Shown here piece by piece: positions 5,811 to 37,910 of a stretch of 38,143 bases of DNA. Source of the DNA: Myxococcales bacterium (lineage in GTDB: Bacteria; Myxococcota_A; Polyangia; Polyangiales; Houyiibacteriaceae); NCBI GenBank assembly GCA_019637115.1, contig JAHBWH010000068.1, positions 1 through 38,143 on the forward strand, in the 5' to 3' direction. Position numbers and translations under genes: made by a program. The notes below the pieces were generated by a model that worked only from the letters and a program-made list of their open reading frames with translations, was not told the origin of the DNA and did no database searches. How positions within the stretch are numbered: the stretch's first letter is position 1; every line of letters begins with the position of its first letter.

Positions 5811-5838
5811 TTGCTGTCACGCCCTGCCGTCCTACAGT
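5811..5838 (+). promoter_or_regulatory. Candidate promoter of tldD
   Basis: TTGCTG at 5811-5816 and TACAGT at 5833-5838 are separated by 16 bases, close to the housekeeping -35/-10 pattern. The ATG begins only 7 bases after the -10 hexamer, so transcription would start at or next to the start codon. That fits the lack of a clear ribosome-binding site. Confidence 0.45.
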
Positions 5839-5845
5839 CCACGGG

Positions 5846-7285
<1,440 letters not shown>

Positions 7286-7293
7286 GGCGCGTG

Positions 7294-11064: not shown

Positions 11065-11721
11065 TCAGGGGCGGGGGGCCGGTTCCATCGTGGGCGGTGG
11101 CGGCATGTCGGTGCCTCCACCCGTACCCGCCCCGCTGCTCGTGCCCGTGCTCGAGGAGCCCTCGTTCGAGGCGTTGCCTTCCGCGCTCGGCTGCGGGTGC
11201 GGCGTCCCCCCGACGGGGTTCGTCAGGCGTTGACTGAGGTCCCAACGGGGAGCGAAATCGGCGTCCGCGAAGGGGCGGCTCGGCGTCGGGTGCGGGTCCC
11301 CCGCGACGGCTGTGCCGTCGAAGTCCACCTCGGCCGAGTAGGGCTCGAGCTCCTGGAGGGCGGCGACGTAGCTGTGCCAAAGCACGTCGAGGTCGAGCGA
11401 CCCCGCAACGACCAGCTCACTCTCGACCGCTGAGTAGCTGTCGACGCAGATGACGCAGTCGGCCTCGCCGAGGGCGACCACCAGCTCCGGGGCTCCAGCC
11501 GCGATCCCCCAGGCCTCGATTTGGCCCAGCCGACCCTCGCAGCCCGCGGTGGCGCCTTGCCACGCCGAGACCGGGATGGTCGGGAGGGGCTCGGCGTGTG
11601 CGACGTAGGAGGACGCCGCGTTGACCGCATCCGTCTCCCCCGCGCAAGCCACGAGGAGGGTGAGGCACGCAGCGGAAACGCGAAGGATTCCAGCGCTGTT
11701 GATGAATCTGGGTTGCATCAT
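11065..11721 (-). CDS. Small predicted lipoprotein of unknown function
   Basis: The 218-residue product begins with a lipoprotein signal: a hydrophobic stretch ending LTLLVACAG with the acceptor Cys at residue 26. The mature part has several Cys residues ([29 protein letters not shown]). The last ~50 residues are a low-complexity Gly/Ser/Thr/Pro/Asn tail. No domain was recognised. The start codon overlaps the stop codon of the upstream sigma-54 activator gene in an ATGA arrangement, so the two are translationally coupled; a second ATG directly follows the first. The context suggests a surface or periplasmic protein tied to that regulator, for example as its target or sensor partner, but nothing in the sequence shows this. 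Confidence 0.75.
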
Positions 11722-14700: not shown

Positions 14701-15428
14701 TCGCTCTGGAGGTACGCGCGCACGCCCGCGGCGTCGAGCGGGGCGAGGCTCAGGCGGGTGGTCGACGCGCCCTCCCGCAAGGCGTGGACGTCGTCACGCG
14801 CGCAGCCTTCGGCGACGGTCGCGACGAAGAGGGCGCGCAGCGTGCGCTCGACGCCGACGCCGTCGTTCCACGGGCCGGCGCCGTCGAAGACGTAGCGGAG
14901 GAGCTGGAGGGTCGCGGCGTCGGCGCGCTCGAGATCGTGGAGCACGACGAGCGGCGGCCTGACCCTGGCGACGTCCCGCAAGAGCCCACGCACGGCGTCG
15001 AAGAAGCGGAGGCGACGTTCGCGCGCGTCGCGCGTGCCGCCCGCGGGGGCGTCGTCCAGGGCGTGCTGATGCCAGAAGCGGTGGCAGCCGTCGCTGCAGC
15101 CCAGGTCGCGCAGCTCGATGGAGGGCTCCATCGACATGTCGGCGAGGAAGCGGAGCGCGCGGTCGACGATGGTCGCGAAGGGCCCGAAGGCGCGGCCCGG
15201 GTCACACCGGCCCTCGAGGACGACCCCACCGTCGAGGCGCGTGCGCCGCGCGAGCTCGTGGAGCAGGCGGGTCTTGCCGCTGCCGGGCGAGCCCTCGACG
15301 AGCACCAAGCGCTCGCCGTGCTCGGGCGCCTCGCCATGCAGTCGGGTGAGCTGCTCGAGCTCGCGCTCGCGGCCCACACACAGCGGTGCCGGGGTCCCGG
15401 TCGGTCGAACGCTGTTGCTCGTCGCCAT
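11718..15428 (-). CDS. Sigma-54-dependent activator with N-terminal P-loop ATPase and TPR array
   Basis: This very large (1236-residue) enhancer-binding protein has three parts. Residues ~20-300 form an AAA_16/MalT-like NTPase with Walker A GSPGSGKT at 46-53. Residues ~370-880 are TPR-type helix pairs (for example [20 protein letters not shown] and [18 protein letters not shown]). Residues ~905-1140 are a sigma-54 AAA+ domain with Walker A GESGTGKE (~931), an intact GAFTGA loop (~978) that contacts sigma-54, Walker [12 protein letters not shown], and [15 protein letters not shown] Fis-type helix-turn-helix follows ([26 protein letters not shown]). The N-terminal ATPase-TPR part resembles STAND-type signalling modules that sense a ligand or partner. 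A GTG two codons earlier (15434) is an alternative start. A lipoprotein gene overlaps its 3' end by four bases. The sigma-54 role is secure; the target genes are unknown. Confidence 0.92.
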
Positions 15429-15463
15429 CGTCACCTATCCAGCCACACCCCAGCCGACCGCGA

Positions 15464-15492
15464 AGGATACGCGGAAGGGGGCAAATCTTCAA
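15464..15492 (-). promoter_or_regulatory. Candidate housekeeping promoter of the ATPase-TPR activator
   Basis: On the minus strand TTGAAG (15492-15487) and TATCCT (15469-15464) are 17 bases apart, a good -35/-10 pair, about 35 bases before the start codon. It implies the activator gene is transcribed by the main sigma factor and is limited at the protein level. Confidence 0.5.
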
Positions 15493-15510
15493 GGCGGCGC
15501 GGCGAGGCGA

Positions 15511-15624
15511 TGTCCGTGCCCGTCTGTGCTCGTGCCGGTCTGTCCGCGTCCGTGCCCGCGTCAGCGCCCGCGTCAGCGCCCGCGTCCGTGCCCGCGCCCG
15601 CGTCAGCGCCCGTACCCGTTCCCA
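15511..15624. repeat. Hexamer array D (GTCCGT/GCCCGC/GTCAGC)
   Basis: Degenerate 6- and 12-base units, including CGTCAGCGCCCG several times, occupy the space between the FHA activator stop codon (15666) and the promoter of the ATPase-TPR activator. It belongs to the same hexamer family as arrays A, C and E but with more GCCCGN units. Confidence 0.8.
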
Positions 15625-15665
15625 CACGCCCAAACGAGCGCGAGCGATCGGCGCGACCGAGCCCG

Positions 15666-17069
15666 TCAGCGCTCTCGGAACTCGTCGATGTCGATCGCGT
15701 AGCGCTTCATCCAGCGGTGTATCTGCATCCGCTCCTTGCCGAGCTCCCGCGCGACGGCCGCAATGTTGCCTGCGTGCCTCGCCAAGAGGGTGCGAAGCTC
15801 ACGTTCGTCGGGGGCGTCTCGGGCGACGGGGCGCGCCGCAGGGGGAGCCGAGGGGCGACTCGCCACGTCGCCATGACCCGTCAACGCGCCCTGCACGGGC
15901 GTGGGAAGGTGCACGAGATCGAGCTCGCGGCCCTCCGAGAGCGCGAGGGAGAGCTTCACGGCGCTCTCGAGCTCGCGGACGTTATAGGGCCACTCGTAGT
16001 GGGCCAGCGCGAGGAAGTACGGGAACGTCACGCCCACCGAGGCGTGCCCGGCCTGGCGGAGAAAGTGCCGCACCAGCACGTGAAGGTCCTCGCGGCGCTC
16101 ACGCAGGGGCGGGAGCGCCGCGACGAACTCGCGGAGGCGCGCGAGCAGATCGCCTCGGAAGCGGCCCTCGGCCACGAACCCGTCGAGGTCGCGGTGGGTC
16201 GCGCAGACGACCCGCACGTCCACGGCCTGCGGGGCGGTCGCGCCCAGCGGCAGGACCTCCTTCTGCTGGAGCACGCGAAGCAGCTTCGCCTGCGCGTCGA
16301 GCGGCATGTCACCGATCTCGTCGAGGAAGAGGGTCCCACCGTGCGCCGCGCGCACGAGGCCGACCTTGTCGGTGGTCGCGCCCGTGAAGGCCCCCTTGCG
16401 GTAGCCGAAGAGCTCGCTCTCGAGCAGGCTCGCGGGCAACGCGGCGCAGTTGATGGCCTGGAATGGCCCCTTGCGACCGCTGAGGCGGTGGACCTCGCGC
16501 GCGACGAGCTCCTTGCCGGTCCCGGACTCTCCGGTCACGACGACCGCGAGCGGCGTCGAGGCGACCTTCACCAGCCGGTCGAGGAGCGCGTCGGTCTGGC
16601 AACCTCCGACGAGCGGGCTGTCTCGGACGTCATGCCGAACGGGGCGCGCGGCCTCGACGATCGTGCCGTCCAGGCGGTACGCGCCATAGCGGAAGACCCC
16701 CGAAGCGGCGTGCCGGAAGAGGCTGTCGCCCACACGAACGACGTCGTGGGCCTCGAGCCGGTGCTCGGTGACACGGCGCCCGTTCACCACGGTGCCGTTC
16801 GTGCTGCCGAGGTCGACGATCCAGTGGCTTCCGTCGCGATGCTCGACGCGCGCGTGATAGCGACTCACGGCCGCCTCGGGGATGGAGAGCGAATTGTCCG
16901 CCTCGCGCCCCAGCGTGGTCACGTCGCCCGAGAAGGGCAGCGCGGACGGGAGGTCGCTATGGAGCCGCGAGTAGACGAGCACGAGGCCTGGCGTCGGGTC
17001 CTCCGCCGCGTGCAGGCGCGGGAGGGCCTCGACGGAAGCGGTCGTCCAGCCGTGCCTCGCTTCGCTCAT
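15666..17069 (-). CDS. Sigma-54-dependent activator with N-terminal FHA domain
   Basis: This 467-residue regulator couples phosphothreonine recognition to sigma-54 transcription. The FHA domain spans about residues 28-120, with the signature [22 protein letters not shown] and [15 protein letters not shown]. The AAA+ domain follows: Walker A GESGTGKE (180-187), GAFTGA (226-231), Walker [12 protein letters not shown] (~245-255), and [12 protein letters not shown]. The C terminus carries a Fis-type helix-turn-helix ([26 protein letters not shown]). FHA domains bind phosphothreonine, so a Ser/Thr kinase is a plausible input, as described for FHA-type enhancer-binding proteins in Myxococcus xanthus. 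The frame is open 60 codons upstream, but similarity begins after MSEARHGW, and GAGG lies just before that ATG. The next gene downstream is the ATPase-TPR activator, after array D. Confidence 0.93.
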
Positions 17070-17079
17070 CGGAGCCTCG

Positions 17080-17085
17080 ACGATA
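17080..17085 (-). promoter_or_regulatory. Candidate extended -10 of the FHA activator gene
   Basis: The minus strand reads TGGTATCGT, an extended -10-like sequence, ten bases before the ATG at 17069. Transcription would start about three bases before the ATG, so the GAGG seen there could hardly act as a ribosome-binding site. No clear -35 is present. Confidence 0.35.
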
Positions 17086-17170
17086 CCAGTTTTTCCAATC
17101 CGCGCCCGGACGCCAGCGGGGTGGTCGCGGCGACGCGAGGCCGCGCGTCTCGCGAGGGCATCACCAGGTC

Positions 17171-18217
17171 TCAGCCCGTCGCCTCTTGCAGAGCCTCGAG
17201 CCCGAGCGCTTCGAAGAGCTGGCGGCTGTCGAAGGGCTTTCGAAGCCACCGGTCCGGCGCGCTCTCGCCATCGACCTGGGGCATCTGCGGCAGCCCCGAC
17301 ATCGCGACCACGGTCCTCGCGCTCTTCCGCTCGCGCAGCCAGCGGACCACCTCGAGACCCGAGCCGTCGCCGAGCGTGAGATCGACGAGGGCGACGTCGT
17401 AGCGCTGCTCGAGCGACATCGCCTCCTCGGCCGTGCGAGCGGCGTCCACCGCGAGGCCGCGGAGCCGGAGCGTCGTCACCAGCAGATCGCGTACCCCGTC
17501 ATCGTCCTCGACGATGAGGATCCGCTGCGCGACGACGGCGCGCGGGAGAAACCCGGACGACTTCCGCTCGAAGGGCTCGGACGCGTTGTCGAGCGCGATG
17601 CGGAACCGCGTCCCCTCGCCGAGGGTCGAGTCGAGCGACAGCAACCCGCCGGCGTCTGCGACGAGCTGGCGCACGGCCGTCAGGCCGATCCCGTGTCCGT
17701 TCGGACGCTCGCTGTAGCCCGCGCCGAAGATGCGCTGCTGCGTCGCCTCGCTCATGCCCGGCCCGTCGTCCTCGATCAGGAGGGTCGTCTGGGCCCCCTT
17801 CTCGATCGTCAGCACCACGCTGCCGCCCTTCTCGAATGCCTGAATCGCGTTCAGGACCAGGTTCCAGGCGACGCGGAGGGTGGGGGTGTGGCGCGCGCTG
17901 ACCCACGCGGACTCGGGGGCGTCGAGCGAGAGCCGAACGTCGCGCTCTCGCGCTTCGGGGCCCAACAAGCGCAGGAGGTCGCGGCAGATCGCGGTGAGGT
18001 CCGAGACCGCGGGCTCGTCGGTGTGGTCGCCGAGCGCGAGCCGCGCCGTGCGATGCGCGGCGCTCGCGGCGGCCTCGATGGCCTCGATGGCCTCTTGGGT
18101 TGGTACCTCTCCCGTCCGCGCGAGGCGCGCCCACCCCAAAACCGTGCTCAAGGCGTTGGCGATGTCGTGCGTCGCCGCCGTCGAGAGCTCCGTGGGGTCG
18201 TGCTTGTGCGTCTTCAT
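17171..18217 (-). CDS. Hybrid histidine kinase with C-terminal receiver domain
   Basis: The 348-residue protein is cytoplasmic, with no membrane segment or sensor domain. The H-box is [17 protein letters not shown] with the phospho-accepting His at residue 17. The ATPase domain shows the N-box [10 protein letters not shown] (Asn123), the G1 box DDGPGM (150-155) and the G2 box GHGIGL (174-179). The receiver domain starts at [12 protein letters not shown], with the acceptor Asp279 in [14 protein letters not shown] and Lys327 in LRKPFD. Because the His lies so near the N terminus, input must come from a partner protein. The receiver lacks an output domain, so the signal is likely passed to another protein or feeds back. 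It lies 101 bases upstream of the FHA activator in the same direction and may be co-transcribed with it. Confidence 0.93.
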
Positions 18218-18269: not shown

Positions 18270-18475
18270 TGCCAGGCCTCTTCGAGACGCGAAAAGGCGT
18301 CACCATGGTGAGGGGGCGCGGAACGATGTTCGGTTTTTTTTGAGCCCACCGGAAAGAGAATCGGATTCGCGCTGGAGGCGTAACCCCCACGTGTGCGTAA
18401 TCACAGAGGGCGCGGGTGAGCCGCTTTCGCGCCGCCGTACGTTCGTTGCACGCTTGCCCCTTGGAGTCCTTCTCG

Positions 18476-19573
18476 ATGCGCCAGTCTCTCGTCGCCGCCT
18501 CGCTTGCTTTCCTGATCCTCGGTTGCGCCTCCGGCACCGGGGGGCGTCCCGACGGCGGCAACCCCCCCCCGATGGGCGACACGGGGGTCGACGCCCCGAT
18601 GCCCCCGCCCGACTCTGGTACCTGCCCGATGACCTGCGCGCCAGGCGAGCAGTGCATCGGCGGCGAGTGCGTCCGGCTCGAGTGCGATCCCGACACCGCG
18701 TGCCCCATCGGCCAGAGCTGCTGCGACGGGCGGTGCGCCTCGCTACCGGTGGATCCGATGAACTGCGGCGCGTGTGGTCGCGCGTGTGGTGCTCGCGGCT
18801 TCCAATGTCTCTCCGGTCAGTGCCGGTGTGGCGAGGCGCCCGCTTGCGATGAGGGCACGACCTGCTGTGAAGCCGGGTGCGTCGACACACAGACCGACGC
18901 AGGAAACTGCGGGGTTTGTGGAAGGGTGTGCCCAGGAGGGCAAGCATGCGTCGGTGGAACGTGTGTGATCCCACCGTGCGAGCCCGCTTGTGCGGAGGGG
19001 GAGACGTGCGATGCGACCACCCTCGCGTGTCGCTGTGGGGGTTCCGCGGCATGCGGCCCATCTCAGGCATGCTGCGCTGGCACGTGTATCGACGTCGCCG
19101 CCGACCGGAACAACTGTGGCACCTGTGGGAACGCGTGTGCGGCAACCGAAACATGCGCAAGCGGAGGGTGTACCGACGACGTCCCGTGCGACCCTGCCTG
19201 CGGGCTAGGCGAGAGCTGCGTCGGCGGAGGTTGTCGATGCGGTGCGGGGCCCGCGTGCGGCGAGGGGCGGCGTTGTTGCTCGGGCGAGTGCGTGGACATC
19301 TCGTCAAACGTCGGGCATTGCGGGGCTTGCGGTCGGACTTGCTCAGGTTCTCAGGCCTGCTGTTCGGGCTTGTGCGTCGACACCACCTCCAGCTTCGACC
19401 ACTGTGGGAGCTGTGGACGTCGATGTGATTCGGGCACGGCCGACGGGTGCTCTGGCGGGGTGTGCACATGCCGAGGCGCCGCGGAGTGCTTCCCGGCCGG
19501 GACGTGCAGCTGCATTCCGCCGCTGCCGCCCATCACGAGCGGCGGTTGCACGGGCATTTGTTTGGCGCTCTGA
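18476..19573 (+). CDS. Cys-rich Stig1-like lipoprotein
   Basis: The 365-residue product starts with a lipoprotein signal (LAFLILGCASG, acceptor Cys17), then an acidic Pro/Gly linker. The rest is a series of Cys-rich units of about 35 residues. A recurring pattern is CCxGxCVD, then D-x-x-N/H-CGxCGxxC, as in DTQTDAGNCGVCGRVC, DVAADRNNCGTCGNAC, DISSNVGHCGACGRTC and DTTSSFDHCGSCGRRC. This resembles the Stig1 family, which is frequent in myxobacterial proteomes, and predicts a disulphide-rich surface protein. The ATG has TTGGAG about nine bases upstream. Codon use is noticeably less GC3-biased than in the neighbouring housekeeping genes. The function is unknown; adhesion or an envelope role is a guess. 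Confidence 0.85.
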   Translation: MRQSLVAASLAFLILGCASGTGGRPDGGNPPPMGDTGVDAPMPPPDSGTCPMTCAPGEQCIGGECVRLECDPDTACPIGQSCCDGRCASLPVDPMNCGACGRACGARGFQCLSGQCRCGEAPACDEGTTCCEAGCVDTQTDAGNCGVCGRVCPGGQACVGGTCVIPPCEPACAEGETCDATTLACRCGGSAACGPSQACCAGTCIDVAADRNNCGTCGNACAATETCASGGCTDDVPCDPACGLGESCVGGGCRCGAGPACGEGRRCCSGECVDISSNVGHCGACGRTCSGSQACCSGLCVDTTSSFDHCGSCGRRCDSGTADGCSGGVCTCRGAAECFPAGTCSCIPPLPPITSGGCTGICLAL

Positions 19574-19687
19574 CCTCATCACGCGCGCAGGGATCTGCCC
19601 CAAGCGAAATGGCGCAACTCGCGATTCGCAAGGCCGAGTACGGTGCAGGCGCCCGTCGTTCGTGGCAGGTTCGCCTGGAGGTGGGTC

Positions 19688-21259
19688 ATGCGAGGTGAGG
19701 TTCTAGTTTCTCTCTTGGCCGCTGCCGTCGGTGGCTGCGGAGGTCTGCCAGCGAATCCGTGCGGAGAGCTCATCCGAGCAGGGGACCGATGCGTGTGTCC
19801 GGACCGCTCCGTGCCCCTCGACGATTGGTCCTGCCAACTCGAGGACGGCACGGTGATCACCGACCCGAACGCGCCAGACGGGTCGCGTCGTGACGCAGGC
19901 GGGCCTGAGACGTCTTCAGACGTTGGCCCCGTCGATGCTACGACCGAGTGCAGCGTCGTGACGTTGTTCGTCGATGATGACGGCGATGGCTTCGGCGACA
20001 GCACGCGTTCCGTGAGCGCGTGTGCCCCGCTCGACGGGCATGTCTTGGCTGGGGGCGACTGCGACGACACGAATCCCGCCATTCACCCTGGCGCGCGCGA
20101 AACCTGTGACGGAGTTGACCAAGACTGCGACGGTGCCATTGATGAAGGGCTCATTCGCGCGCTTGGTGAGCCAATCGAGGTCGCGCGAGGGCCGCGCCCG
20201 ACGGAGCTCGCTTCGGCCGTCGCCCTGCGTTCGGGGTTCGCTGTGGTGTGGCGAGATGAGGCCGAAGACGTCACGAGAGCGTCGTTCTTCGCACGTTCCG
20301 GCACGTCCATCGAGGCAAACGTTTTCGTTACTGGGCACGATGCCGGCTCGTTTCGGGCTGCCCGCTACGATCGCGGAGGTGTCGACCAAGTCGTCATCAT
20401 GTGGGTGGTGCGGCGCGGACTATGGAGCACGATGTGCTCGTCAGAGGGTGTTTGTACGGTAGCTCGCGGCGTCGCGGAGGTGGACCCCTCCGCATCCATC
20501 GAAGCTATGGTTCAGTTGCGCGGAAGCATCGTGATTCGACTCCGTGAGGCGAGCGGTGCACGACTCCTGTCGATCGACCCAGGGCGAGGGGGAGGCGTTC
20601 GTGGCGAGGTCCGGTTGCCGGCTGTCGAGGGGCAGCTCCGCGCGCTGGGAGGGCTCGCGACGGTAGCAGGACACGAGCCGTATGTGCTCGTGAGCCGCGT
20701 CGAGGGCCGCCTCGAGGGCGGATCCGTTCACGAGGTGACGGCCGCGCTCATGCGGGTCCGAGGTGAAGAACTAAGTTTCAATGAGGAACATGATTTGTCC
20801 CCTTGGGACGTTCGGGAGCGCTGCGTTGGGGATGGAGTCACCCACTGCTTCCCCGCCGTTCTTCCACTGGGTCAGGCAGACATCGACCAGCCCTCGTTGG
20901 TGATCTACGAGGCAATGCTGCGGTTCCGCACAGACGGCTCGAGTTCGGCCTCGCACTGCCTATTCGGGCCGACGCCCCGCTTGGACTCGGCGCCTACGCT
21001 CGAGACTGGGTGCATCGAGGGGGCCACCCGAATGGCGGTTGCTCCGCGAGGAAGCGTGGCCTTACAGGTCTCTGATTTCGAAGCGGAGTGGGGCGCGCGC
21101 GACATTCCACTCGGCGGAACCGCGACCGGAGGCGACTACGCCTCCGTTGGGGCGTTCGAATCGATCGAGTCCGTGTCGATGCTCGGGGCCCACGGAGTGG
21201 TAGTTGGTCCGATGGGGTCGACCTTGAGCGCCGTGCGACTTGGCTGCACACCGCCCTGA
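19688..21259 (+). CDS. Predicted lipoprotein with MopE-type Asp/Cys-rich segment
   Basis: The 523-residue product has a lipoprotein signal (LLAAAVGGCGG, Cys17) and an excellent ribosome-binding site (GGAGGTG, five bases before ATG). Residues ~85-150 hold the MopE-like motif: DDDGDGFGD, then GGDCDDTNPAIHPGARE, TCDGVDQDCDGAIDEG. Its acidic pattern suggests calcium or other metal binding, and it is common in myxobacterial secreted proteins. The remaining ~370 residues look like beta-rich repeats of an extracellular domain, with no recognised family. The stop codon TGA overlaps an ATG in the gatC frame (TGATG at 21257-21261), and the distance to the likely gatC start is 20 bases. The lipoprotein gene therefore probably leads into the gatCAB operon. 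Codon use is less GC-biased, like that of the preceding gene. Confidence 0.8.
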   Translation: MRGEVLVSLLAAAVGGCGGLPANPCGELIRAGDRCVCPDRSVPLDDWSCQLEDGTVITDPNAPDGSRRDAGGPETSSDVGPVDATTECSVVTLFVDDDGDGFGDSTRSVSACAPLDGHVLAGGDCDDTNPAIHPGARETCDGVDQDCDGAIDEGLIRALGEPIEVARGPRPTELASAVALRSGFAVVWRDEAEDVTRASFFARSGTSIEANVFVTGHDAGSFRAARYDRGGVDQVVIMWVVRRGLWSTMCSSEGVCTVARGVAEVDPSASIEAMVQLRGSIVIRLREASGARLLSIDPGRGGGVRGEVRLPAVEGQLRALGGLATVAGHEPYVLVSRVEGRLEGGSVHEVTAALMRVRGEELSFNEEHDLSPWDVRERCVGDGVTHCFPAVLPLGQADIDQPSLVIYEAMLRFRTDGSSSASHCLFGPTPRLDSAPTLETGCIEGATRMAVAPRGSVALQVSDFEAEWGARDIPLGGTATGGDYASVGAFESIESVSMLGAHGVVVGPMGSTLSAVRLGCTPP

Positions 21260-28628: not shown

Positions 28629-30977
28629 TCAGTCCGGCACCGTGATGTCGGCGCGCTCGCTGGGGAGGCCGACCCGCAGGACGCAGTCGCGTAGGTTCGG
28701 CGACGCCGCGAGCTTCAGCGCGGCGGGCGTGATGACGTGGGTCTCGAGCGCGCGCCGCAGCGGGCGCGCGCCGTAGCGGCGATCGTAGCCGAGCTCGGCG
28801 AGTCGGTCTCGGGCTCGGGCGGTGACCTCGAGCCGGACGCCACGGCGCGTGAACCCCTCGCGCGACTGGCTCTGCGCGACCAGCAGATCGGTGATCCGGC
28901 GGACGGATTCGCGCTCGAGGTGCCGGAAGGCGACGACCTGATCGATGCGGCCCAGCAGCTCGGGGCGGAAGGCGTCGCGCACCGCGCGCAGGTAGTCGGC
29001 CTGGGCGCTCGACACGCGGCCCGCGGGGAGAGGCGCGGTCGGAGACGTGGCGTCGGGCGCTCGCGCCTCCGAAGGGGCGCCCGTGAAGCCCACCGCGTCG
29101 CGATCGCGCGCGCCGAGGTTCGAGGTCATCACGACGAAGGTCATCCGGAAGTCCACGAGGCGCCCGAGCGCGTCGGTGAGGCGGCCTTCGCCGAGCACGC
29201 CGAGCAAGAGGTCGAAGACCTCGGGGTGCGCCTTCTCGATCTCGTCGAGCAGCACCACGGCCAGCGGCTCGCGGCGCACGCTCTCGGCGAGGCTCTGCAC
29301 GCCCCGCCCCGCGGCGATGAGGCGCGCCGCGCTGCCGGGCGTCGCGAGCTCGCTCATGTCGACTCGCACGAGCCGCTTCGGATCCCCGAAGAGGTAGGCG
29401 GCGACGTGCTTCGCGAGCTCCGTCTTCCCGACGCCCGTCGGTCCCGCGAAGAGGAGGGTCGCGAGCGGTCGGTCGGGCGGGTGGAGGCCCGCCTTGAAGG
29501 GCGCGATGGCGCGCGCGGTCGCGAGGCAGGCCTCGTCTTGGCCGATGACCCCGGCGCGCAGCCGCGCGGCCACGTGGTCGACGCCGGCGGCGTGCGCGTC
29601 GCTCACGACCTCAATCGGCAGGCCCGTCTGTCGGGCGAACGCCGCCTCGACGTCGGGCGCGTAGAGGGTCGTCGGCGCGTGAGGATCGGCGGCGAGCGCG
29701 TCGAGGAAGCGGTACGCCTTGCCGGGGAAGCGTCGGTCCCTCCGATACGAGGCGAGCAGCTCGAGGCTGCGTCGGAGCGCGCGAGGGTGCAGGCGTTTGG
29801 GCGTGCGCTCGGCGTACGCGCGCAGATCGGTCAGCAGCTCGGCGGGCGAGGGCTCCTCGAGGTGGAGGTGCTCGAAGAGCTCGACGAAGCCCGCGTCGCG
29901 GCGACGCGCGTCGGCGAGCTCGGCCGGCGTGCACTCCGCGACGAGCGTGATCTCGCCCTCGCTCATCGGCCCCGCGAAGAGGTTGGCGAGCGTCGCGCCG
30001 TCCGACTGGGGGCGGAGCAGGGGCGCCAGGCGGTCGACGTAGAGCAGATCGCCTTCGTGCGAGAGCTCGTCGACGAGGCCGAGGACGCGCTCTTGCCACA
30101 TCCCGAGGTAGACCATGCCCGCCAGCAAGCGCTCGGCGCTCGTCGCGAAGAGCCCCGGCGTGGGCGTCGCCCCGCCTTCGGCGGCGCGGCGGCGCTGCAG
30201 CAGGAGGTACGCGAGGTGGCGGAGCTCTGTGGTCTTCCCCACCCCAGGGCCCCCGACGAAGAGCAGCGAGCGCGGCCGCTTGCCTGGCCCCGGGTGCACC
30301 AGCGGGAGCGCGAGCTGCGCGGCCCGCGGCTCACCGACCGGGCGCGGCAGTCGGCGGCGCGCGGCGCGCTCGATCCAGTCGTCGGCGACCTTGGAGAGGA
30401 TGGGTCGGTCGTCCGTCGGGGGCGCCTCCACGTCGTGGTCGCCGCCCAAGAAGCTCGGCGCCCACTCGACGACGTACTCCTCGCCCTCGTGGCGGAAGTC
30501 GTAGAGCCACTTCGGCTCGGCGCCGAGCAGCGCGCCGCTGACCGCGCGGGCGAGCGCATCCTTCGCCGTCTCGAGGTCCTCCAGCACGAGCCACCAATCG
30601 AAGCGCGGCAGCATCACCCGGTAGGAGCCGTCCTTCGCGCGGCACCAGGCGTAGGTCAGGCGCAGGGGCATCACGCGCTTACCGATGACGGGTCGCTTGT
30701 CGACGACGGTGGACGGATGCACCGGGAGCGCGACCGAGCGTGTCTCGAAGCGCTCGGTCCACAGGTAGGGCGCGAGCTGCTCGCCCTCGCTGGAGATGCG
30801 GACCTGGAGGTCGATCGCGAGCTGCGCGAGCACGGCCGCCTCGTCCGCGCCATAGGCCGAGGGGGGCGGCGGCGTGAAGGGGCCGACGGGGCCACGCACG
30901 AGGACGCCGGAGCGCCGTCCATCGGCGTGGGTGACGAAGTAGACCCGCAGGCTCGCGGTCTTGCGCGTCGTGCTCAT
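28629..30977 (-). CDS. Clp-like double AAA+ ATPase, third gene of operon (no C-terminal extension)
   Basis: The 782-residue product has the core order of ClpA/ClpB. Residues 1-200 are a beta-rich region (LRVYFVTHADGRRSGVLVRG, SVALPVHPS) unlike the Clp N domain. D1 has Walker A GGPGVGKTT (242-250), a pore-loop-like AGMVYLGMWQERV, and Walker B LLYVDR (311-316), where Arg316 replaces the catalytic Glu. The D1/D2 link RFPGKAYRFLDAL, TGLPIEVV and VIGQDEA is typical. D2 is complete in its ATPase motifs: GPTGVGKT (512-519), VVLLDE (574-579), TSN (618-620), Arg finger GRID (Arg677) and GAR (Arg738). The D2 pore loop GYVGY is missing. VGF (629-631) lies where ClpA/ClpX-type proteins have the ClpP-docking loop. 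The start is the ATG at 30977, overlapping the previous stop codon as ATGA; an ATG ten codons earlier is possible. Confidence 0.9.
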   Translation of the reverse strand: MSTTRKTASLRVYFVTHADGRRSGVLVRGPVGPFTPPPPSAYGADEAAVLAQLAIDLQVRISSEGEQLAPYLWTERFETRSVALPVHPSTVVDKRPVIGKRVMPLRLTYAWCRAKDGSYRVMLPRFDWWLVLEDLETAKDALARAVSGALLGAEPKWLYDFRHEGEEYVVEWAPSFLGGDHDVEAPPTDDRPILSKVADDWIERAARRRLPRPVGEPRAAQLALPLVHPGPGKRPRSLLFVGGPGVGKTTELRHLAYLLLQRRRAAEGGATPTPGLFATSAERLLAGMVYLGMWQERVLGLVDELSHEGDLLYVDRLAPLLRPQSDGATLANLFAGPMSEGEITLVAECTPAELADARRRDAGFVELFEHLHLEEPSPAELLTDLRAYAERTPKRLHPRALRRSLELLASYRRDRRFPGKAYRFLDALAADPHAPTTLYAPDVEAAFARQTGLPIEVVSDAHAAGVDHVAARLRAGVIGQDEACLATARAIAPFKAGLHPPDRPLATLLFAGPTGVGKTELAKHVAAYLFGDPKRLVRVDMSELATPGSAARLIAAGRGVQSLAESVRREPLAVVLLDEIEKAHPEVFDLLLGVLGEGRLTDALGRLVDFRMTFVVMTSNLGARDRDAVGFTGAPSEARAPDATSPTAPLPAGRVSSAQADYLRAVRDAFRPELLGRIDQVVAFRHLERESVRRITDLLVAQSQSREGFTRRGVRLEVTARARDRLAELGYDRRYGARPLRRALETHVITPAALKLAASPNLRDCVLRVGLPSERADITVPD

Positions 30978-33900
30978 CGGCCGGCCTCCCAGCTCGACGC
31001 GAGCCACGTGAACGGGCGGAGCATCGCGGCGAGGTCTGCGCTCTCCGCGCTCGCGACGTGGGTCAGGCGATGGTCCTCGACCTCATAGGCGGCGCGCCCC
31101 GAGCGACGGCCGTCGACGCGATAGCGCCGCACGACGGGCGCGAGGCCGTCCGGGGCCTCGAGGGTCTCCCCCGCGGCCAGCCGGGCCTCGAAGGTCGCGC
31201 GGTCGCGCTGATGCGCCGCGACGCGAAGGTCGACGTCCAAGGCGACGTCGTGAAGGCGCACCCGGACGATCTCGGAGCCGCCGTCGGCGTTGCTCATCAC
31301 GTGGCAGCCCTCGTCGAACGCGAGCAGCGCGCCGACGTCCACCGCAGAGACCTCCATGACGAGCAGGCTCGCGCGCGCCAGCTCGTCGAGCGATCCCGTC
31401 ACGGGGGCGCCGAGCGCGTCGACGCCGGCCGCCCGCTCGAGCTCCGCGAGCTCGGCGTAGCGCCGCGCGAGCGTCGCGAAGAGGCCGAGATGATCGCGCG
31501 CGCGGCCGACGCGGAGGAGCTCGACCTGCACGCGATCGCCTCCACCTCGGCCAGCGTCCGCGATCGAGGTGATCGCGCGCGCGAGGTGGGCGGCGTGCGC
31601 GAAGGCCTCGAGCAGCGCCGCGCGACGGGGCGGCGCGTCGCCCGCCCGCATCAGGCGCCGGTCGAGCATCCGGACGCGAACCCGGCGGCCATCGAAGACC
31701 GGCGCATGCCCGTAGCCCTCGGTCGCGAGCTCGAGCTCGGCCTCGTGGCGGTGCTGATCGCCGTGCGCGAGGCGCTCGAGCCGGGCGCGCGCGCGGTCGA
31801 CCTCGACCCGCAGCCGGTCGAGGCGGTAGAGCGCGTCGCCCTCTGCCTCCGAGGAGGTGCCTCGGAGCCGCTCGAGGCGCTCGCGGACGCGCTCGCCGAT
31901 CGCCTCCATCCGCGCGTCGCTCGCCGCTTCGTCGAAGCGAGCCAGCGCGCGGGGCAGGTAGCCCTCGAGCTCTGGCAGGCCTGCGTCGAGCAGCGAGCGA
32001 AGCGGTGACTCTCCCGGCAGCGGTGTGGCCTCGCGCAGCGCGTCCGAGTGCAGCGTATAGCGCGCGCTCCCCTCGCGCGCGTAGAGCTGGATGACCTCCA
32101 GGTCCGGGCGCGTGATGGGGCCCTCCGAGGCATCCGCGCCCGAGCCTCCGGCGAGGTGCTCGGCGAGCAGGGAGGCGACGTGCGTCTCGAGGTACCGCCG
32201 GACCGAGCGCGCGCCCGCGCGCTCGTCGAACGCCTCGCCCGCCATCCGGTCGACCGCGCTCTCGTGGGGCACGACGAAGACGTTGCGGTCCGTGAGGCCG
32301 CGGCGACCGAGCAGCGCGGCGAGCTCGCGTGCCGCGATGTCGCGGGCGGTCTCGGCCGACAGGGGCTCGAAGGGGACGACGCGGTCGATGCGGTTGAAGA
32401 GCTCGGGCGGGAAGAAGTCCTTCACCGCGCGCGAGACCTCGGCGGCGCGGCTCGTGGCGCTCGGGGCCCCGAAGCCGACGGGGGGGCGCGGGCTCGCGCC
32501 GAGGTTCGAGGTCATCACGACGACGCAGTGGGTGAAGGACACGCGATCGCCGGCGGCGTCCGTCAGCCGCCCGTCGTCGAGGAGCTGCAGCAGCAGATAG
32601 AGCACGCTCGGGTGCGCCTTTTCGATCTCGTCGAGCAAGAGCAACGCGAAGGGTCGCTGGCGGACGGCCTCGGTGAGCAGGCCGCGCGGCTGCCAGCGAT
32701 CGCCGATGAGGCGCGGCACCGCGTCGGGGCCGGAGAGCTCCCCCATGTCGAAGCGCACGAGCCGATCGCTCGCGCCGTAGAGCGTGCGCGCGAGCGTCTT
32801 CGCAAGCTGCGTCTTGCCCGTCCCGGTCGGCCCGGTGAAGAGGAACGTCCCGTAAGGACGCTTCGGGTCGACGAGCCCCGTGCGGATCTTCAGCGCAAGC
32901 TCCGCGACGGCAGCGACCGCCGCGCTCTGGCCGAGGACCTCCTCCTCGAGGTCGGCCACGACGTCCCGGAGGTCGAGCGGCTCGTCGGCGTGGAGGAGGC
33001 CGTCGGGCAAGCCGGTGCGCTGCGTGAGGAGCGAAGAGACGGCGTCCCCGTCGACCACGGGCGCGTCGAAGCGACGGAGGAGATCCAGCGCCTTGCCGGG
33101 CAGCGCCTGTTCGGGGAAGAGCGGGCTTCCGAGCTCGAGGATCGTCCGGTAGGCCGCGGGCGCGAAGCGGATCCGCGCGCTCGTCTCGATCCTTCGCCCC
33201 TCGTGCAGCAGCATCTTGAGCGTCTCGTCCTCGGTCGCCGGCGCGACGTGCACACGACCGAACGCCGCGGCGAACGAGGGCGCGTCGTCCTCGAGTCGCT
33301 GCCATTGGGTCGGCGTGCAAGCGCCGACCAGCGTGATCTCGCCTCGCTGAACGGGCCCGCGGAAGACGTCCGCCATGCAGCGCTCGCTGTCGCGGCTGCG
33401 TCCGACGCGCCCGAAGGTGTGGAGATCGTCGACGAGGAGGACGAGCGCGCGTCCGCGCGCCGCCGAGAGGATCTCCATGCAGCGGAGTTCCCAATCGCCC
33501 ACGTGGCGCATGCCAGCCAGCAGGCGGCTGCCCGCGACCGAGAAGACCCGCGTGACGCGGTCGAGGTTGCGGTGGGTCGCGTAGCCGTCCGCCTCGAGGA
33601 GATCCGCGACGGCGCGCCGCAGGGCCGTGCGCTTGCCCGCGCCCGGTGAGCCGAGGAGCACGAAGGAGCGCTTCTTCGGGGTGCAGAGCAGCTGCTGCAG
33701 CTCGGTGCGCAGCGGCTCGCGGGGCCGCCCGAGCTCGAGGCTCTCGTCCGCGGCGCGCGCGCTCAGATCCACGCCCACCTGATGGAGCACGGCGAGCGAG
33801 CCCTGTCCCCCCTGGCGCCGCGCGCGGTCGGCCTCCGTGAGCAGATCGTCGAAGGGGCCCTTCTGCTTGCCGGCGCGGTCGAGGAGCGAGCGCGGCCGGA

Positions 33901-34393
33901 GCACCATCGGCAAGCTGCGGAGGGCGTCGCGCGGTTGCAACACCAAGGCCTCGATCATGGCGCCGTCGAGGGCGCCCCAGGCTCGTCCGAAGAAGGGGGT
34001 CAGCTGTCCCTCGAGGGGCGCGTCGGGGTCGAGCGTGAGCACCTCGTTCTGGCGCAGCGGGTGGTACGCGACGCTGAGGCGTGCCTTGCCCTCGAGCCGG
34101 CGCATCTCGACGATGACGGGGAAGAGCCCCGTCTTCTTCGCGCGCCCGCGGGGGGTCTCGATCGTGAGCTCGAGCCGTGGCTTCTCGAGGGTGATGGTGC
34201 GCGGCGCGCCGAGGGCGCGGAGCGCGTGCGGGCTCGCGTCCCTCGCGAAGCTCTCGAGCTCCTGGGTGACGAGCTGGCGGAGCTTGGTCTCGTTGCGGCC
34301 ACGACGGGTGACGGTCGCGGCGCCGAGCCCGATGGTGCTCCAGAGCACCCCGGCGCTGTCGCGGCGTTGGAAGATCTCGATGACGGTGTTCAT
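30974..34393 (-). CDS. Clp-like double AAA+ ATPase with release-factor-like C-terminal extension, second gene
   Basis: The 1139-residue product resembles its two neighbours. Residues 1-235 are an unrecognised domain. D1 has Walker A GSPGAGKRT (248-256; Arg follows the Lys where Ser/Thr is usual) and Walker B LVLLVDD (Asp323 instead of Glu). D2 is intact: GPTGTGKT (521-528), LLLLDE (584-589), TSN (628-630), Arg finger NRID (Arg668), GAR (727-729). The D2 pore loop is shortened to RLIGDRWQPRGLLTEAV, without GYVGY. VGF (639-641) sits at the ClpP-loop position. Residues ~820-1055 form a helical segment followed by VQVELLRVGRARDHLGLFA and LLVMEVSAVDVGALLAFDEG, which align in order with the PCRF core of release factors. 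The GGQ motif is absent. It is preceded by GGAGAAG, and its start overlaps the stop codon of the repeat ORF (ATGA). Confidence 0.9.
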   Translation of the reverse strand: MNTVIEIFQRRDSAGVLWSTIGLGAATVTRRGRNETKLRQLVTQELESFARDASPHALRALGAPRTITLEKPRLELTIETPRGRAKKTGLFPVIVEMRRLEGKARLSVAYHPLRQNEVLTLDPDAPLEGQLTPFFGRAWGALDGAMIEALVLQPRDALRSLPMVLRPRSLLDRAGKQKGPFDDLLTEADRARRQGGQGSLAVLHQVGVDLSARAADESLELGRPREPLRTELQQLLCTPKKRSFVLLGSPGAGKRTALRRAVADLLEADGYATHRNLDRVTRVFSVAGSRLLAGMRHVGDWELRCMEILSAARGRALVLLVDDLHTFGRVGRSRDSERCMADVFRGPVQRGEITLVGACTPTQWQRLEDDAPSFAAAFGRVHVAPATEDETLKMLLHEGRRIETSARIRFAPAAYRTILELGSPLFPEQALPGKALDLLRRFDAPVVDGDAVSSLLTQRTGLPDGLLHADEPLDLRDVVADLEEEVLGQSAAVAAVAELALKIRTGLVDPKRPYGTFLFTGPTGTGKTQLAKTLARTLYGASDRLVRFDMGELSGPDAVPRLIGDRWQPRGLLTEAVRQRPFALLLLDEIEKAHPSVLYLLLQLLDDGRLTDAAGDRVSFTHCVVVMTSNLGASPRPPVGFGAPSATSRAAEVSRAVKDFFPPELFNRIDRVVPFEPLSAETARDIAARELAALLGRRGLTDRNVFVVPHESAVDRMAGEAFDERAGARSVRRYLETHVASLLAEHLAGGSGADASEGPITRPDLEVIQLYAREGSARYTLHSDALREATPLPGESPLRSLLDAGLPELEGYLPRALARFDEAASDARMEAIGERVRERLERLRGTSSEAEGDALYRLDRLRVEVDRARARLERLAHGDQHRHEAELELATEGYGHAPVFDGRRVRVRMLDRRLMRAGDAPPRRAALLEAFAHAAHLARAITSIADAGRGGGDRVQVELLRVGRARDHLGLFATLARRYAELAELERAAGVDALGAPVTGSLDELARASLLVMEVSAVDVGALLAFDEGCHVMSNADGGSEIVRVRLHDVALDVDLRVAAHQRDRATFEARLAAGETLEAPDGLAPVVRRYRVDGRRSGRAAYEVEDHRLTHVASAESADLAAMLRPFTWLASSWEAGR

Positions 34394-34581
34394 CGATCTT
34401 CTCCGAAGGCGTTACTGCTCGGTCTTCCCCGAAGACGGGTGCTCATCGGTCTTCCCCGAAGACGGGTGCTCATCGGTCTTCTCCGAAGACGGGTGCTCAT
34501 CGGTCTTCTCCGAAGACGGGTGCTCATCGGTCTTCCCCGAAGACGGGTGCTCATCGGTCTTCCCCGAAGACGGGTGCTCAT
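34390..34581 (-). CDS. 63-codon repeat ORF linking the first two Clp-like genes
   Basis: This small frame starts in the ATGA that ends the first Clp-like gene and stops in the ATGA that starts the second. It encodes six copies of the 9-residue unit MSTRLRGRP (or MSTRLRRRP) and then SSNAFGEDR. Every unit begins with ATG and carries GGAGAAG or GGGGAAG upstream, so there are six possible starts. The last unit is one base shorter, which switches frame and lets the ORF end exactly at the next start. A basic repetitive peptide may be made, or the ORF may only carry ribosomes from one gene to the next. No homology is recognised. It may be an expanded coupling site rather than a gene with a product. 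Confidence 0.45.
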   Translation of the reverse strand: MSTRLRGRPMSTRLRGRPMSTRLRRRPMSTRLRRRPMSTRLRGRPMSTRLRGRPSSNAFGEDR

Positions 34582-34606
34582 CGGTCTTCTCCGAAGACGG
34601 TGGGGT
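34393..34606 (-). repeat. Array of 27-bp repeats containing ribosome-binding site plus ATGA
   Basis: Six full 27-bp units cover 34419-34580, with a 26-bp variant at 34393-34418 and a partial unit at 34581-34606 that encodes the last residues (VFGEDR) of the first Clp-like gene. Units vary only at one position (CTTCCCC or CTTCTCC on the plus strand). The unit thus appears to be a duplicate of the gene junction itself: the end of one ORF, a ribosome-binding site, and a stop/start overlap. There are no spacers, so it is not a CRISPR. Confidence 0.92.
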
Positions 34607-37600
34607 ACAGGGTCTCGGGCTCGTCGGCGGCGAGGATCTCGCGCAGGGCCATCTCGTCGACGCTCTCGGGTGACCAATAGGCCGAGAGCGGGATGTGGAT
34701 GTAGTCGTCGGGCAGCTTCTGGCCCGGTCGCTCATCCGTCCAGCGACGCGAGCTCTGCCGCAGCAGGTCCCGTGACGAGCCGGGGCGTGTGGGCTGTGCC
34801 TTCGCGTGCGTCCACTCCGCCTCGCGAAGCTCACGGAAGGCCAGGACGTGGATCTCGTGGTGGGCACCGTCGAGCTTCGGGGTGACGCCCAGGTAGCGGT
34901 GGAGGCCAGCCTCGTGGGCGACGAGCGTACCCGCGTGCGGGCCGCGGACGTGCATCAGCGTGACCAGACGATCCCGGACGGGGCGCGACAGGTACTCGGC
35001 CATCCACGCCGCGTCGCGTGGCGGCCCGTAGGGGCGCTCGGCCGGCCACGCCGCCTTGGAGGGGGAAGGATCCTTGAAGAGGTGGAAGGTCGCGGTCCAG
35101 CCGCGTCGCGCGAGGTCGCCGAGGAGCGGCCCGATCCACTGATCCAGCGTGCGGCCCTCGTCGAGCTCCTCGCAGCGCACGGTGATGGCGTGTCGTGCTC
35201 GCCGCTCCAAGAGGAACGCGAGGAGGTTCTGCCGGAACTGCAGCCGCGCCGAGGCGAGCTCCGCGTCGAGCTCCAGCGCCTCGCCGCCCCGCTCGACCTC
35301 GATCCAGCTCGAGAACGTCAGCTCCTCGAGCTCGAAGATCTCGTCGCGCGCCGCGCGGACGCGCTCCCACGGCTGCCCGAGCTGGTGCAGGCGCGTCTGG
35401 AGCGCCGCGATCTCCGAGCCTGCGCGCGCGTGCTCCTTCTTCGAGCGCGGCGCTGCGAGCTGCGCGACGAGCGAGCCGACCTCTTCGACCAGCGGCTCGA
35501 CCGCGGGTCGATCGAGCGCCTCGAGGACCTCGCGGCGCAACGTGCTCGCGGCCTCGAGTGTGCGCAGATCGTCGCGGCGTCCGCCGCTCTCGACCGGGAG
35601 GGCCTCGACGACCAGCCCTCCCGCCGCGCGAACGAGCGCGGGGCTGGACGCGGCGGGCTCGGACTCGTCACGCACGCGCAGGCGCATGGTGCGCGCTCGC
35701 GCGCCGAGCGACGAGAGGGTCGCAGCGAGCGGCGCGGTGAAGCGGTCTTCGACGTGGCGCCGGAGCGCGCGCGCGCCGTAGACGGGGTCGAACCCTTCGG
35801 CCGCGAGCCGGGCGAGGGCGAGCTCGCTCACCTCGACCGCGACGCCGCGGTCGCGCAGCCCGCGGCGCGCGACGACGCGATCGACGGTGAGCCTCGCGAC
35901 CTCCGCGATGTCCTCCGGCGAGAGCGCCGAGAAGGGCACGACGCGATCGAGGCGCCCGACGAGCTCGGGACGGAACGCGCGCCGGACCGCGTCGAGGTAC
36001 GCCCCCTCCGAATCCTCGCGCGCGGCGATGCCCACGCGGCGGCTCCCGTGGCTCGCCCCGAGGTTGCTCGTGAGGATCAGCAGCGCGTTGTGGAAGTACG
36101 CGGTCCGCCCCCTTCCGTCCGTCAGCCGACCCTCGCCGGTGATCTGCAGCAGCAGGTCGAAGACGAGCGGGTGCGCCTTCTCGATCTCGTCGAGCAGGAT
36201 GACCGCGAAGGGTTGCTCGCGGACCTTGCGCGTCAGCAGCCCCTCGCCGCCATCATCGGCCTCGACCAGGCGTCGCGCCGCGTGGCCGTCCGCGTACTCG
36301 CTCATGTCGAAGCGGACGAGGCGCTCCTCGGCGCCGAAGAGCACCTCCGCGAGGGCGCGCGCGAGCTCCGTCTTGCCGACCCCCGTCGGCCCGACGAAGA
36401 GCAGCGTCGCGAGCGGCTTGTCGCCGGGCGCGAGCGCGGCCTTCACGACGCAGAGCGCCTCGACCACCGCGTCTCGCGCGGGCGCTTGGCCGATGAGGCG
36501 CGCGGCGAAGCGCGCCCGGAGGCGCTCGGGGTCGAGGGGGCGGTCGTCGCGCAGGAGCGCGTCGGGGATCCCCGTCTGCGCCGAGAAGCGCGCGTAGACC
36601 GTGCTCGCGCGGACGCGGTCGTGCTCCGTCGCCGCGACCCCGTGGCGTTCGACGGACGCGAGCACGTCGTCGAACAGCTCCGCGGCCTTCCCCGGGAAGG
36701 GCCGGTAAGGGAGGTAGCGCTCGCAGAGGGCCAGCATCGCGGCGCGCGCCTCGGCGTCGACCTCGGCGCGCCCCTCCGCGCTCGCGTGCGCGGCGCGCGC
36801 CTCGAGCAGCGCCGCCGCCTGGGTGCGATCGAGCGGGGGGACGGGGAGGGTGTGGAAGCTCTGGAAGAAGCCCTCGTAGCGGCTCGTGAGGAGATCCGCG
36901 GAGACCTCGTCCAGCTCTCCGACCACGCGGACGCGCCCCTCCTCGAGCGCGGGGCGGATCGCGGCGGGGAGGTCGACGCTCCCGCTGCCGCTCTGATCGA
37001 AGAGATCCGCGAGGTCGTCGAAGACGAGGAGCGCGTCGAGCCGCTCGACGGCGTCGAGGACGCGGCGCAGGCGCTCTTGCCATTGCCCGAGCCCGCTCAT
37101 CCCGGCCATGAGCTGCGCGCCGCTCGTCGCGAACGCGCGCCGCCCCTCGCCCGGCCCGCGGAGCCAAGCGCGGAGGAGCGCGCTCTTGCCGACCCGCTCG
37201 GGGCCGACGAGCAGCACCGAGCGGCGCTCGGTGCCCGCGAGCAAGCCGTCGAGCGTGCTCACGAGCGCGTCACGCCCGACGACCGGCGGCCCCGCGAGGT
37301 GCGCGCCGTCGTGCAGGGGGGTCGCGACCTGGGCGAGGAGCTCGAGGGCGTCCTTGCGCGCGCGCGCGGCGACGAGCTGCGCGTGTTGCTTCGCCGCGCG
37401 CTCGGCGTCGCCCTCGCGGTCGACGAAGAGCCGCAGGGGGACGATCCGCGTCTCGGTCGACGGCAAGAGCGCGAGGCGGGTGGCGGGGTCGGGCGAGAGG
37501 GCGCCGAGGTGACGCCGCAGCTCGTGCGTCACGGTCTCCTCGAGGGGCTCGTTCGCGCCCACGTAGACGACGTGCCGCAGCGCGGGGACGATCACCCACG

Positions 37601-37910
37601 ACGCTCGCTCGTGTGGGACCACGAGCACGTCGAAGGGCACCGTCGGCTCGCGCCGCAGGCGGAGCGGGAGCTCGAGCTCCGGCAACTTCACCGAGAACCG
37701 ACGCGCCTCGCTCGTGGCGGGGAGGGCGAAGCGCGCGACGCGCTCGGGAGGCGCCGTCCCGAGGAGATCCGAGAGGAAGAGGCGCAGCTCGGCGAGGACG
37801 TCGCCTTCGCTCCCGATGGCGGCGAGCTCGGGCTCGACCACGGGGTAGGCGACGCAGGTCCCGTCGGGGAGCTCGTCGAGCACGACGAGCGTGTCGATCG
37901 TCATCGTCAC
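34578..37910 (-). CDS. Clp-like double AAA+ ATPase with release-factor-like C-terminal extension, first gene
   Basis: The 1110-residue product has an unrecognised N-terminal domain (1-205: LVVLDELPDGTCVAYPVVEP, RFALPATSEARRFSVKLPE). D1 has Walker A GPERVGKS (236-243) and Walker B LLVFDD (Asp299 instead of Glu). D2 is intact: GPTGVGKT (507-514), VILLDE (570-575), TSN (614-616), GRLD (Arg653), GAR (712-714). The D2 pore loop is shortened (LVEADDGGEGLLTRKV). VGI (626-628) lies at the ClpP-loop position. Residues ~785-870 are helical. Residues ~907-1030 align with the release-factor PCRF core: AITVRCEELDEGRTLDQWIG, LARRGWTATFHLF, then VRGPHAGTLVAHEAGLHRYL, comparable to G-x-x-A-x-x-L-x-x-E-x-G-V-H-R. 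PGQ at 1062-1064 may be a relic of GGQ. The start may be GTG at 37910, just after a -10-like hexamer, or ATG at 37904; neither has a ribosome-binding site. Confidence 0.9.
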   Translation of the reverse strand: MTMTIDTLVVLDELPDGTCVAYPVVEPELAAIGSEGDVLAELRLFLSDLLGTAPPERVARFALPATSEARRFSVKLPELELPLRLRREPTVPFDVLVVPHERASWVIVPALRHVVYVGANEPLEETVTHELRRHLGALSPDPATRLALLPSTETRIVPLRLFVDREGDAERAAKQHAQLVAARARKDALELLAQVATPLHDGAHLAGPPVVGRDALVSTLDGLLAGTERRSVLLVGPERVGKSALLRAWLRGPGEGRRAFATSGAQLMAGMSGLGQWQERLRRVLDAVERLDALLVFDDLADLFDQSGSGSVDLPAAIRPALEEGRVRVVGELDEVSADLLTSRYEGFFQSFHTLPVPPLDRTQAAALLEARAAHASAEGRAEVDAEARAAMLALCERYLPYRPFPGKAAELFDDVLASVERHGVAATEHDRVRASTVYARFSAQTGIPDALLRDDRPLDPERLRARFAARLIGQAPARDAVVEALCVVKAALAPGDKPLATLLFVGPTGVGKTELARALAEVLFGAEERLVRFDMSEYADGHAARRLVEADDGGEGLLTRKVREQPFAVILLDEIEKAHPLVFDLLLQITGEGRLTDGRGRTAYFHNALLILTSNLGASHGSRRVGIAAREDSEGAYLDAVRRAFRPELVGRLDRVVPFSALSPEDIAEVARLTVDRVVARRGLRDRGVAVEVSELALARLAAEGFDPVYGARALRRHVEDRFTAPLAATLSSLGARARTMRLRVRDESEPAASSPALVRAAGGLVVEALPVESGGRRDDLRTLEAASTLRREVLEALDRPAVEPLVEEVGSLVAQLAAPRSKKEHARAGSEIAALQTRLHQLGQPWERVRAARDEIFELEELTFSSWIEVERGGEALELDAELASARLQFRQNLLAFLLERRARHAITVRCEELDEGRTLDQWIGPLLGDLARRGWTATFHLFKDPSPSKAAWPAERPYGPPRDAAWMAEYLSRPVRDRLVTLMHVRGPHAGTLVAHEAGLHRYLGVTPKLDGAHHEIHVLAFRELREAEWTHAKAQPTRPGSSRDLLRQSSRRWTDERPGQKLPDDYIHIPLSAYWSPESVDEMALREILAADEPETLYPTVFGEDR

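Follow-up and report, generated by a model that had tools for sequence, protein, structure and literature searches.

Three tandem genes on the minus strand of a contig from a Myxococcales bacterium (GenBank JAHBWH010000068.1, positions 28629-37910) encode Clp-like ATPases with two AAA+ domains, here named A, B and C, and two of the three products bear what appears to be a former release factor. The window, that is, the whole stretch of 38,143 nucleotides that was analysed, is an entire contig (C400) of an 8.88-Mb draft genome. In A and B, the second AAA+ domain (D2) is followed by about 350-370 residues that have no counterpart in C. In A this region almost certainly descends from a class-I release factor, with RF2 as the nearest type, and for B profile comparisons make the same origin very probable. 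These arms keep release-factor domains 1, 2 and 4, and the peptide-releasing GGQ domain has been lost. To our knowledge, a Clp/Hsp100 motor and a release factor joined in one protein were not known before. The preliminary description of the locus had drawn attention to the N-terminal regions of the three proteins; the defining feature lies instead in the RF2-derived C-terminal domain of A and B. The parts of the operon are listed below.

34578-37910, minus strand: gene A, 1110 residues, GTG start; N-terminal domain, first AAA+ domain (D1), D2 and release-factor-like C-terminal domain
37245-37910, minus strand: N-terminal domain of A, residues 1-222, homologous to that of B by hhalign, no Pfam match
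36561-37289, minus strand: D1 AAA+ domain of A, about residues 208-450, with Walker A but with Gly in place of the pore tyrosine, from motif alignment
35706-36533, minus strand: D2 AAA+ domain of A, about residues 460-735, from Pfam and motif alignment
34581-35630, minus strand: release-factor-like C-terminal region of A, residues 761-1110, from Pfam in orthologues, AlphaFold2, Foldseek, VIA-align and hhalign
34390-34581, minus strand: 63-codon repeat open reading frame (ORF) that links A to B and consists of a 27-bp minisatellite
34378-34600, minus strand: the 27-bp minisatellite, 8.3 copies, duplicating the A/B start-stop junction
30974-34393, minus strand: gene B, 1139 residues; N-terminal domain, D1, D2 and release-factor-like C-terminal domain
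33716-34393, minus strand: N-terminal domain of B, residues 1-226, from profile comparison
32144-33733, minus strand: D1 and D2 of B, from motif alignment
30983-32122, minus strand: release-factor-like C-terminal region of B, residues 758-1137, from profile comparisons
28629-30977, minus strand: gene C, 782 residues; N-terminal domain, D1 and D2, stopping right after D2 without a release-factor-like region
30273-30977, minus strand: N-terminal domain of C, residues 1-235, from a structure model
28698-30401, minus strand: D1 and D2 of C, from motif alignment

A single-sequence Pfam scan of the window's A misses the release-factor domain, and PCRF, which corresponds to domain 2, is found in three of 12 A orthologues (best expect value, E, 0.0044). 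Residues 761-1110 of A were modelled by AlphaFold2 with a predicted local distance difference test score (pLDDT) of 91.8 and a predicted template modelling score (pTM) of 0.87, and the model consists of a helical domain 1, the PCRF domain 2 and domain 4, with the GGQ domain absent. Foldseek gave 15 matches at E < 0.001, every one of them a class-I release factor; the first 33 rows contain nothing else, and the best match in the PDB has E 5e-5 with probability 1.00. VIA-align superimposes the model on release factors with Z 11.8 over 260 residues at 7.4 Å. Because the hairpin part by itself is enough for certain unrelated helical proteins to score Z 11, weight was placed on the PCRF part, which by itself gives Z of about 10 over ~140-155 residues at 3.1-3.9 Å, and on the sequence. 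In the latter respect, hhalign aligns the C-terminus of A with release factors at 94.6% and E 7.3e-8, with a score of 62.5, where none of 40 column shuffles exceeded 18.2. The match of B is weaker (score 34.8; shuffles at most 23.7), and the B region is further tied to this family by the comparison of the A and B C-terminal profiles (E 6.4e-6) and by its profile match to the stand-alone fusion proteins described below (95.6%, E 1.3e-8). The GGQ motif is absent from the sequences of both A and B.

A separate observation concerns half of the C-terminal domain of ribosomal protein L7/L12, which is matched in the A C-terminus of two homologous loci (L033 and L035) and in residues 469-495 of B in another (L034), with E of 3e-5 to 1.8e-4 and just under the Pfam cut-off. 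These half domains in three homologues are a weak hint of the ribosome.

The same joining of a Clp-like motor and a release factor also occurs outside the triplet, and these stand-alone relatives lend support, from their sequences, to a release-factor ancestry. A PCRF search of the order matched a 1141-residue ORF in genome G048, whose product is Clp-like and has the C-terminal domain seen in A and B. Stand-alone relatives are present in other Myxococcota classes. At a threshold of E 1e-105 they were detected in 23 of the 377 genomes, a count that also includes certain proteins from other tandem triplets. The stand-alone C-termini give prfB matches with E 2e-31 (nearly full length, in L170), 8.5e-22, 8e-20, 6e-16 and 1e-12, and PCRF with E down to 3e-16, above the gathering score. 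When 13 stand-alone proteins were aligned to true RF2, none had GGQ at the catalytic position; G-x-H-R and the motif of domain 4 are retained in most of them, the SPF tripeptide is lost, and the PCRF core is not alignable in two (L166 and L167). No conserved neighbour genes accompany the stand-alone fusions, and a plasmid search with a stand-alone C-terminus found genuine prfB among its annotated matches. The protein of L170 (8313-11912, minus strand of that locus) runs from a Clp-like part into a nearly full-length RF2 in which GGQ is replaced (SGKGLL), and by eye its N-terminus is repeat-like; it has the appearance of a stage on the way to losing domain 3.

Tandem Clp-like triplets of another type were found in L168, L169, L171 and L038, with release-factor-like ends in several members; the third member of the L168 triplet also appears to bear such an end. 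In a tree of D2 the members from L168-L171 show no one-to-one pairing with A, B and C, and triplets may therefore have had more than one origin.

With regard to the motor, the preliminary description of three adjacent minus-strand paralogues with the D1/D2 order of Clp/Hsp100 proteins is confirmed. A, B and C are 32-39% identical to one another over D1-D2, where the ClpB model matches them with E 5.5e-88, 6e-90 and 4.5e-89, respectively, and the ClpA and ClpV models also score; AAA_2 and ClpB_D2-small are present in each of the three (Pfam). The Clp-like reading stands, but it had overlooked a D1 that is predicted to be dead and a D2 without its pore loop. Both features emerge from the comparison of 82 A, B and C sequences, for which five canonical Clp proteins from this genome served as reference. 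In D2, Walker A, Walker B, sensor 1, the arginine finger and sensor 2 are kept in every sequence that covers them, and the aromatic G-Y-V-G pore loop, present in all five canonical proteins, is deleted in 82 of 82. In D1, the Walker A lysine is retained in nearly all sequences, and the catalytic Walker-B glutamate is kept in only one of 27 A, none of 25 B and one of 30 C proteins, its place being taken by Asp or Asn in A, by Asp in B (25/25) and mostly by Arg in C. The arginine-finger positions of D1 are mostly lost, in a part where the exact alignment is less certain. The D1 pore loop has a Tyr in 29 of 30 C and 16 of 25 B proteins and mostly a Gly in A, followed in most sequences by a Trp four residues later. 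D1 is therefore predicted to be catalytically dead in A, B and C, and on the strength of these alignments D2 alone retains the full set of residues for ATP hydrolysis. A dead D1 combined with an active D2 that has no pore loop is at odds with the usual threading model for this class of ATPases.

The N-terminal regions are as the preliminary description had them, in that the proteins begin with ~200 residues that contain no Clp N domain: Clp_N has no match in A, B or C at E up to 1, and no other Pfam model matches there. The N domains of A and B are homologous (hhalign 93%, E 2.4e-7), and profile comparison showed no homology of the N domain of C to either. The structure prediction that had been suggested for this region was run on C and yielded a model with pLDDT 85 that has no Foldseek match below E 0.001 and hence no significant fold match. 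The best VIA-align rows for this domain (30273-30977) are release-factor domain 3, for both of its halves (residues 8-65 and 100-157), at Z of about 4.4. A release-factor domain 3 is not claimed here, as this Z is low and the profiles give no support. No relative of the N domain was found on plasmids, and the domain is absent from the stand-alone protein of L130, which has an open start immediately ahead of D1.

The genes for A, B and C are kept or lost together. Among 377 Myxococcota genomes, surveyed with the C-terminal profiles for A and B and with the N domain for C, the genomes with A and those with B are the same 31, of which 30 also have C; in the one without C (G038) the contig ends inside B. 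These counts carry no correction for the phylogenetic relatedness of the genomes. The carriers are large-genome relatives of the myxobacteria, the named ones being Sandaracinaceae and other Myxococcota, and include Sandaracinus sp., Enhygromyxa salina and Plesiocystis pacifica SIR-1. The order A-B-C on one strand recurs in more than 20 other genomes and is therefore not due to chance; the genes usually overlap by 4 bp (at nearly all junctions of a first genome set, and at 10/14 A/B and 13/14 B/C junctions of a second). Linkage alone is insufficient to account for the co-occurrence, because in four genomes (L074, L075, L078 and L081) C is still present although its contig is not that of the A-B pair. 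In the D2 tree A, B and C form separate clades, with Shimodaira-Hasegawa-like approximate likelihood ratio test (SH-aLRT) supports of 98.9, 100 and 92.9, and their distances correlate (mirror-tree r 0.91-0.94), as plain vertical descent would likewise give. The survey of neighbours revealed no gene regularly linked to the triplet, only local synteny among close relatives, and hence no conserved outside partner. The proposal that the products work together, already put forward in the preliminary description, thus gains support, and a joint function of A, B and C is quite probable.

A further step is to ask what the three proteins would do together. Our proposal, which we rate at even chances, is that the operon encodes a hetero-oligomeric, ribosome-directed AAA+ remodelling machine built of three Clp-like subunits; a mixed A/B/C ring is plausible, and binding of the arms of A and B to the ribosome is inferred. 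In such a machine the arms would settle in the A site of the ribosome or close to it, with neither stop-codon reading nor peptide release, D1 would form a non-hydrolysing ring that may grip through its Tyr/Trp loops, and hydrolysis in D2 would power a movement by which ribosomes that are stalled or idle, or the occupants of their A site, are remodelled. The function would then lie in the quality control or rescue of ribosomes, with no direct hydrolysis of peptidyl-tRNA.

Several considerations weigh against this proposal. The first is the inferential standing of ribosome binding itself. Then, the SPF/PxT tripeptide that recognizes the stop codon is conserved neither in A and B (alignment by eye) nor in the stand-alone proteins, so the domain could have been repurposed. 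In addition, the flanking genes offer no link to translation, an arm must have space and flexibility if it is mounted on a large hexameric ring, and both the stoichiometry of A, B and C and their mixing in one ring are assumptions.

Repurposing is accordingly the main rival: the release-factor-like domain would have left the ribosome to bind another RNA or protein, or to hold the ring together, and the client remodelled would be non-ribosomal. In its favour are the loss of both the tripeptide and GGQ and the strong divergence of the domains (orthologues are 25-53% identical to the copies of A and B in the window), and translation genes were not found nearby. What speaks for the ribosome is that the PCRF fold, G-x-H-R and the domain-4 R-x-x-D signature persist over many genera and in the stand-alone relatives, and that the L7/L12 fragments recur in some homologues; on balance we consider repurposing unlikely, although it is the strongest competitor.

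In another scenario, which is distinctly improbable, the ring is a partner of ClpP, and the arms bring it to ribosomes so that nascent or stalled chains are fed to the protease, as by a ClpC that a release factor would guide. A hydrophobic-Gly-hydrophobic tripeptide is indeed found at the position of the ClpP-binding IGF loop of ClpA, ClpC and ClpX (B 24/25, C 22/29 and A 19/27), but it may be a functionless inheritance; the D2 pore loop needed to hand over the substrate is missing from every one of the 82 sequences, and translocation driven by D1 is not to be expected. That the operon is a defence system, stopping or clearing translation during phage infection, has very little probability: the patchy distribution (31/377 genomes) and weak matches in PADLOC to AAA+ proteins from the candidate systems PDC-M37B and DolB would suit it, yet the best stretches of these matches are confined to the generic D2 AAA+ domain, the Pfam scan of the window showed no defence genes, and the N domain has no plasmid relative. 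Least probable of all is an ordinary, divergent ClpB/ClpA-type chaperone or the ClpV of type VI secretion, for, despite the D1-D2 architecture and the best family scores, these identities are rejected by scores far below the curated cut-offs (ClpB 296-303 bits against 1232, ClpA 269-301 against 993, and ClpV 190-232 against 885, that is, 4-5 times below; about a quarter of the cut-off for ClpB, ClpA and ClpV), by the features in which the proteins depart from the family (no Clp N domain, a dead D1, a deleted D2 pore loop and an added release-factor domain), and by the canonical Clp proteins encoded elsewhere in the same genome. The earlier judgement that ClpV was unsupported is in line with this, as no type VI secretion domains are present among the scanned ORFs of the window.

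Several known systems can be compared with the proposed machine. Like ClpB, ClpA and ClpC (Hsp100 class I, with two AAA+ rings), the three proteins have the D1-D2 order, the catalytic motifs of D2 and ClpB_D2-small, and in most sequences a tripeptide of the IGF type lies where ClpA has it; they differ in having no Clp N domain, a D1 without catalytic Glu and Arg fingers and a deleted GYVG, in being three co-dependent paralogues and, for A and B though not C, in the release-factor domain after D2. With ClpV (TssH) the Hsp100 architecture is held in common, and secretion genes are not seen among the ORFs of the window. The arms of A and B resemble RF2 (prfB) and RF1 in the hairpin of domain 1, in the PCRF domain 2 and in the fold and motifs of domain 4, and the RF2 profile is matched over nearly its full length in the stand-alone relative L170; unlike these factors, the arms lack GGQ and SPF/PxT, have a lost or degenerate domain 3, and are fused behind an AAA+ motor. 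By analogy only, Cdc48 and Vms1 of eukaryotic ribosome quality control also couple a double-ring AAA+ motor to a release-factor-type protein, but there the fold is of the unrelated eRF1 type, the two are separate polypeptides, and Vms1 is a hydrolase (PMC6514570). The same survey of release-factor evolution names no Clp fusion, and 'Clp' never occurs in its main text (PMC6514570). No description of a Clp-release-factor fusion was found in the open-access literature searched.

The gene junctions are as first described, with tight coupling through ATGA and, in one case, through a repeat ORF. B and C overlap by ATGA, and the start of C is taken as the ATG that overlaps the stop of B (782 residues; the longest ORF of C has 792). 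Between A and B, the ATG of the 63-codon ORF overlaps the TGA of A, and its own TGA overlaps the ATG of B, again as ATGA in both cases. Each unit of the minisatellite (34378-34600) carries a GAAGACCGATGA-like start signal, and the repeat keeps A and B translationally coupled over 185 bp. Directly upstream of A, at the end of the contig (37979-38143), there is a 12-bp tandem repeat of 13.8 copies that reads DPDTDP in the frame of A and that probably broke the assembly.

Elsewhere in the window, an adjacent TldD/PmbA pair lies at 4736-8658 on the plus strand, its first member having a ~400-residue N-terminal extension without a Pfam match. Long open frames occupy both strands at 11718-17249, those of the plus strand without a Pfam match, and related ORFs lie near the triplets of L074, L082, L083 and L084. 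At 18416-21259 on the plus strand, a STIG1-like repeat protein adjoins a protein with a MopE-type metal-binding motif.

The joining of Clp and release factor has been maintained across the classes of Myxococcota, in stand-alone proteins as well as in co-dependent triplets. Because this joining was kept while the release activity was lost, an ATP-driven mechanical step at the ribosome, so far not sought in bacteria, may exist. Tentatively, and with less confidence than in the remodelling machine as such, the operon may thus represent a new class of bacterial ribosome-acting systems, in which a three-subunit ring with decommissioned arms that enter the A site would mechanically clear or split stalled ribosomes. 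If true, this would be the bacterial counterpart, by convergence, of the eukaryotic Cdc48-Vms1 coupling, and two of the triplet carriers, Plesiocystis pacifica and Enhygromyxa salina, are cultured organisms.

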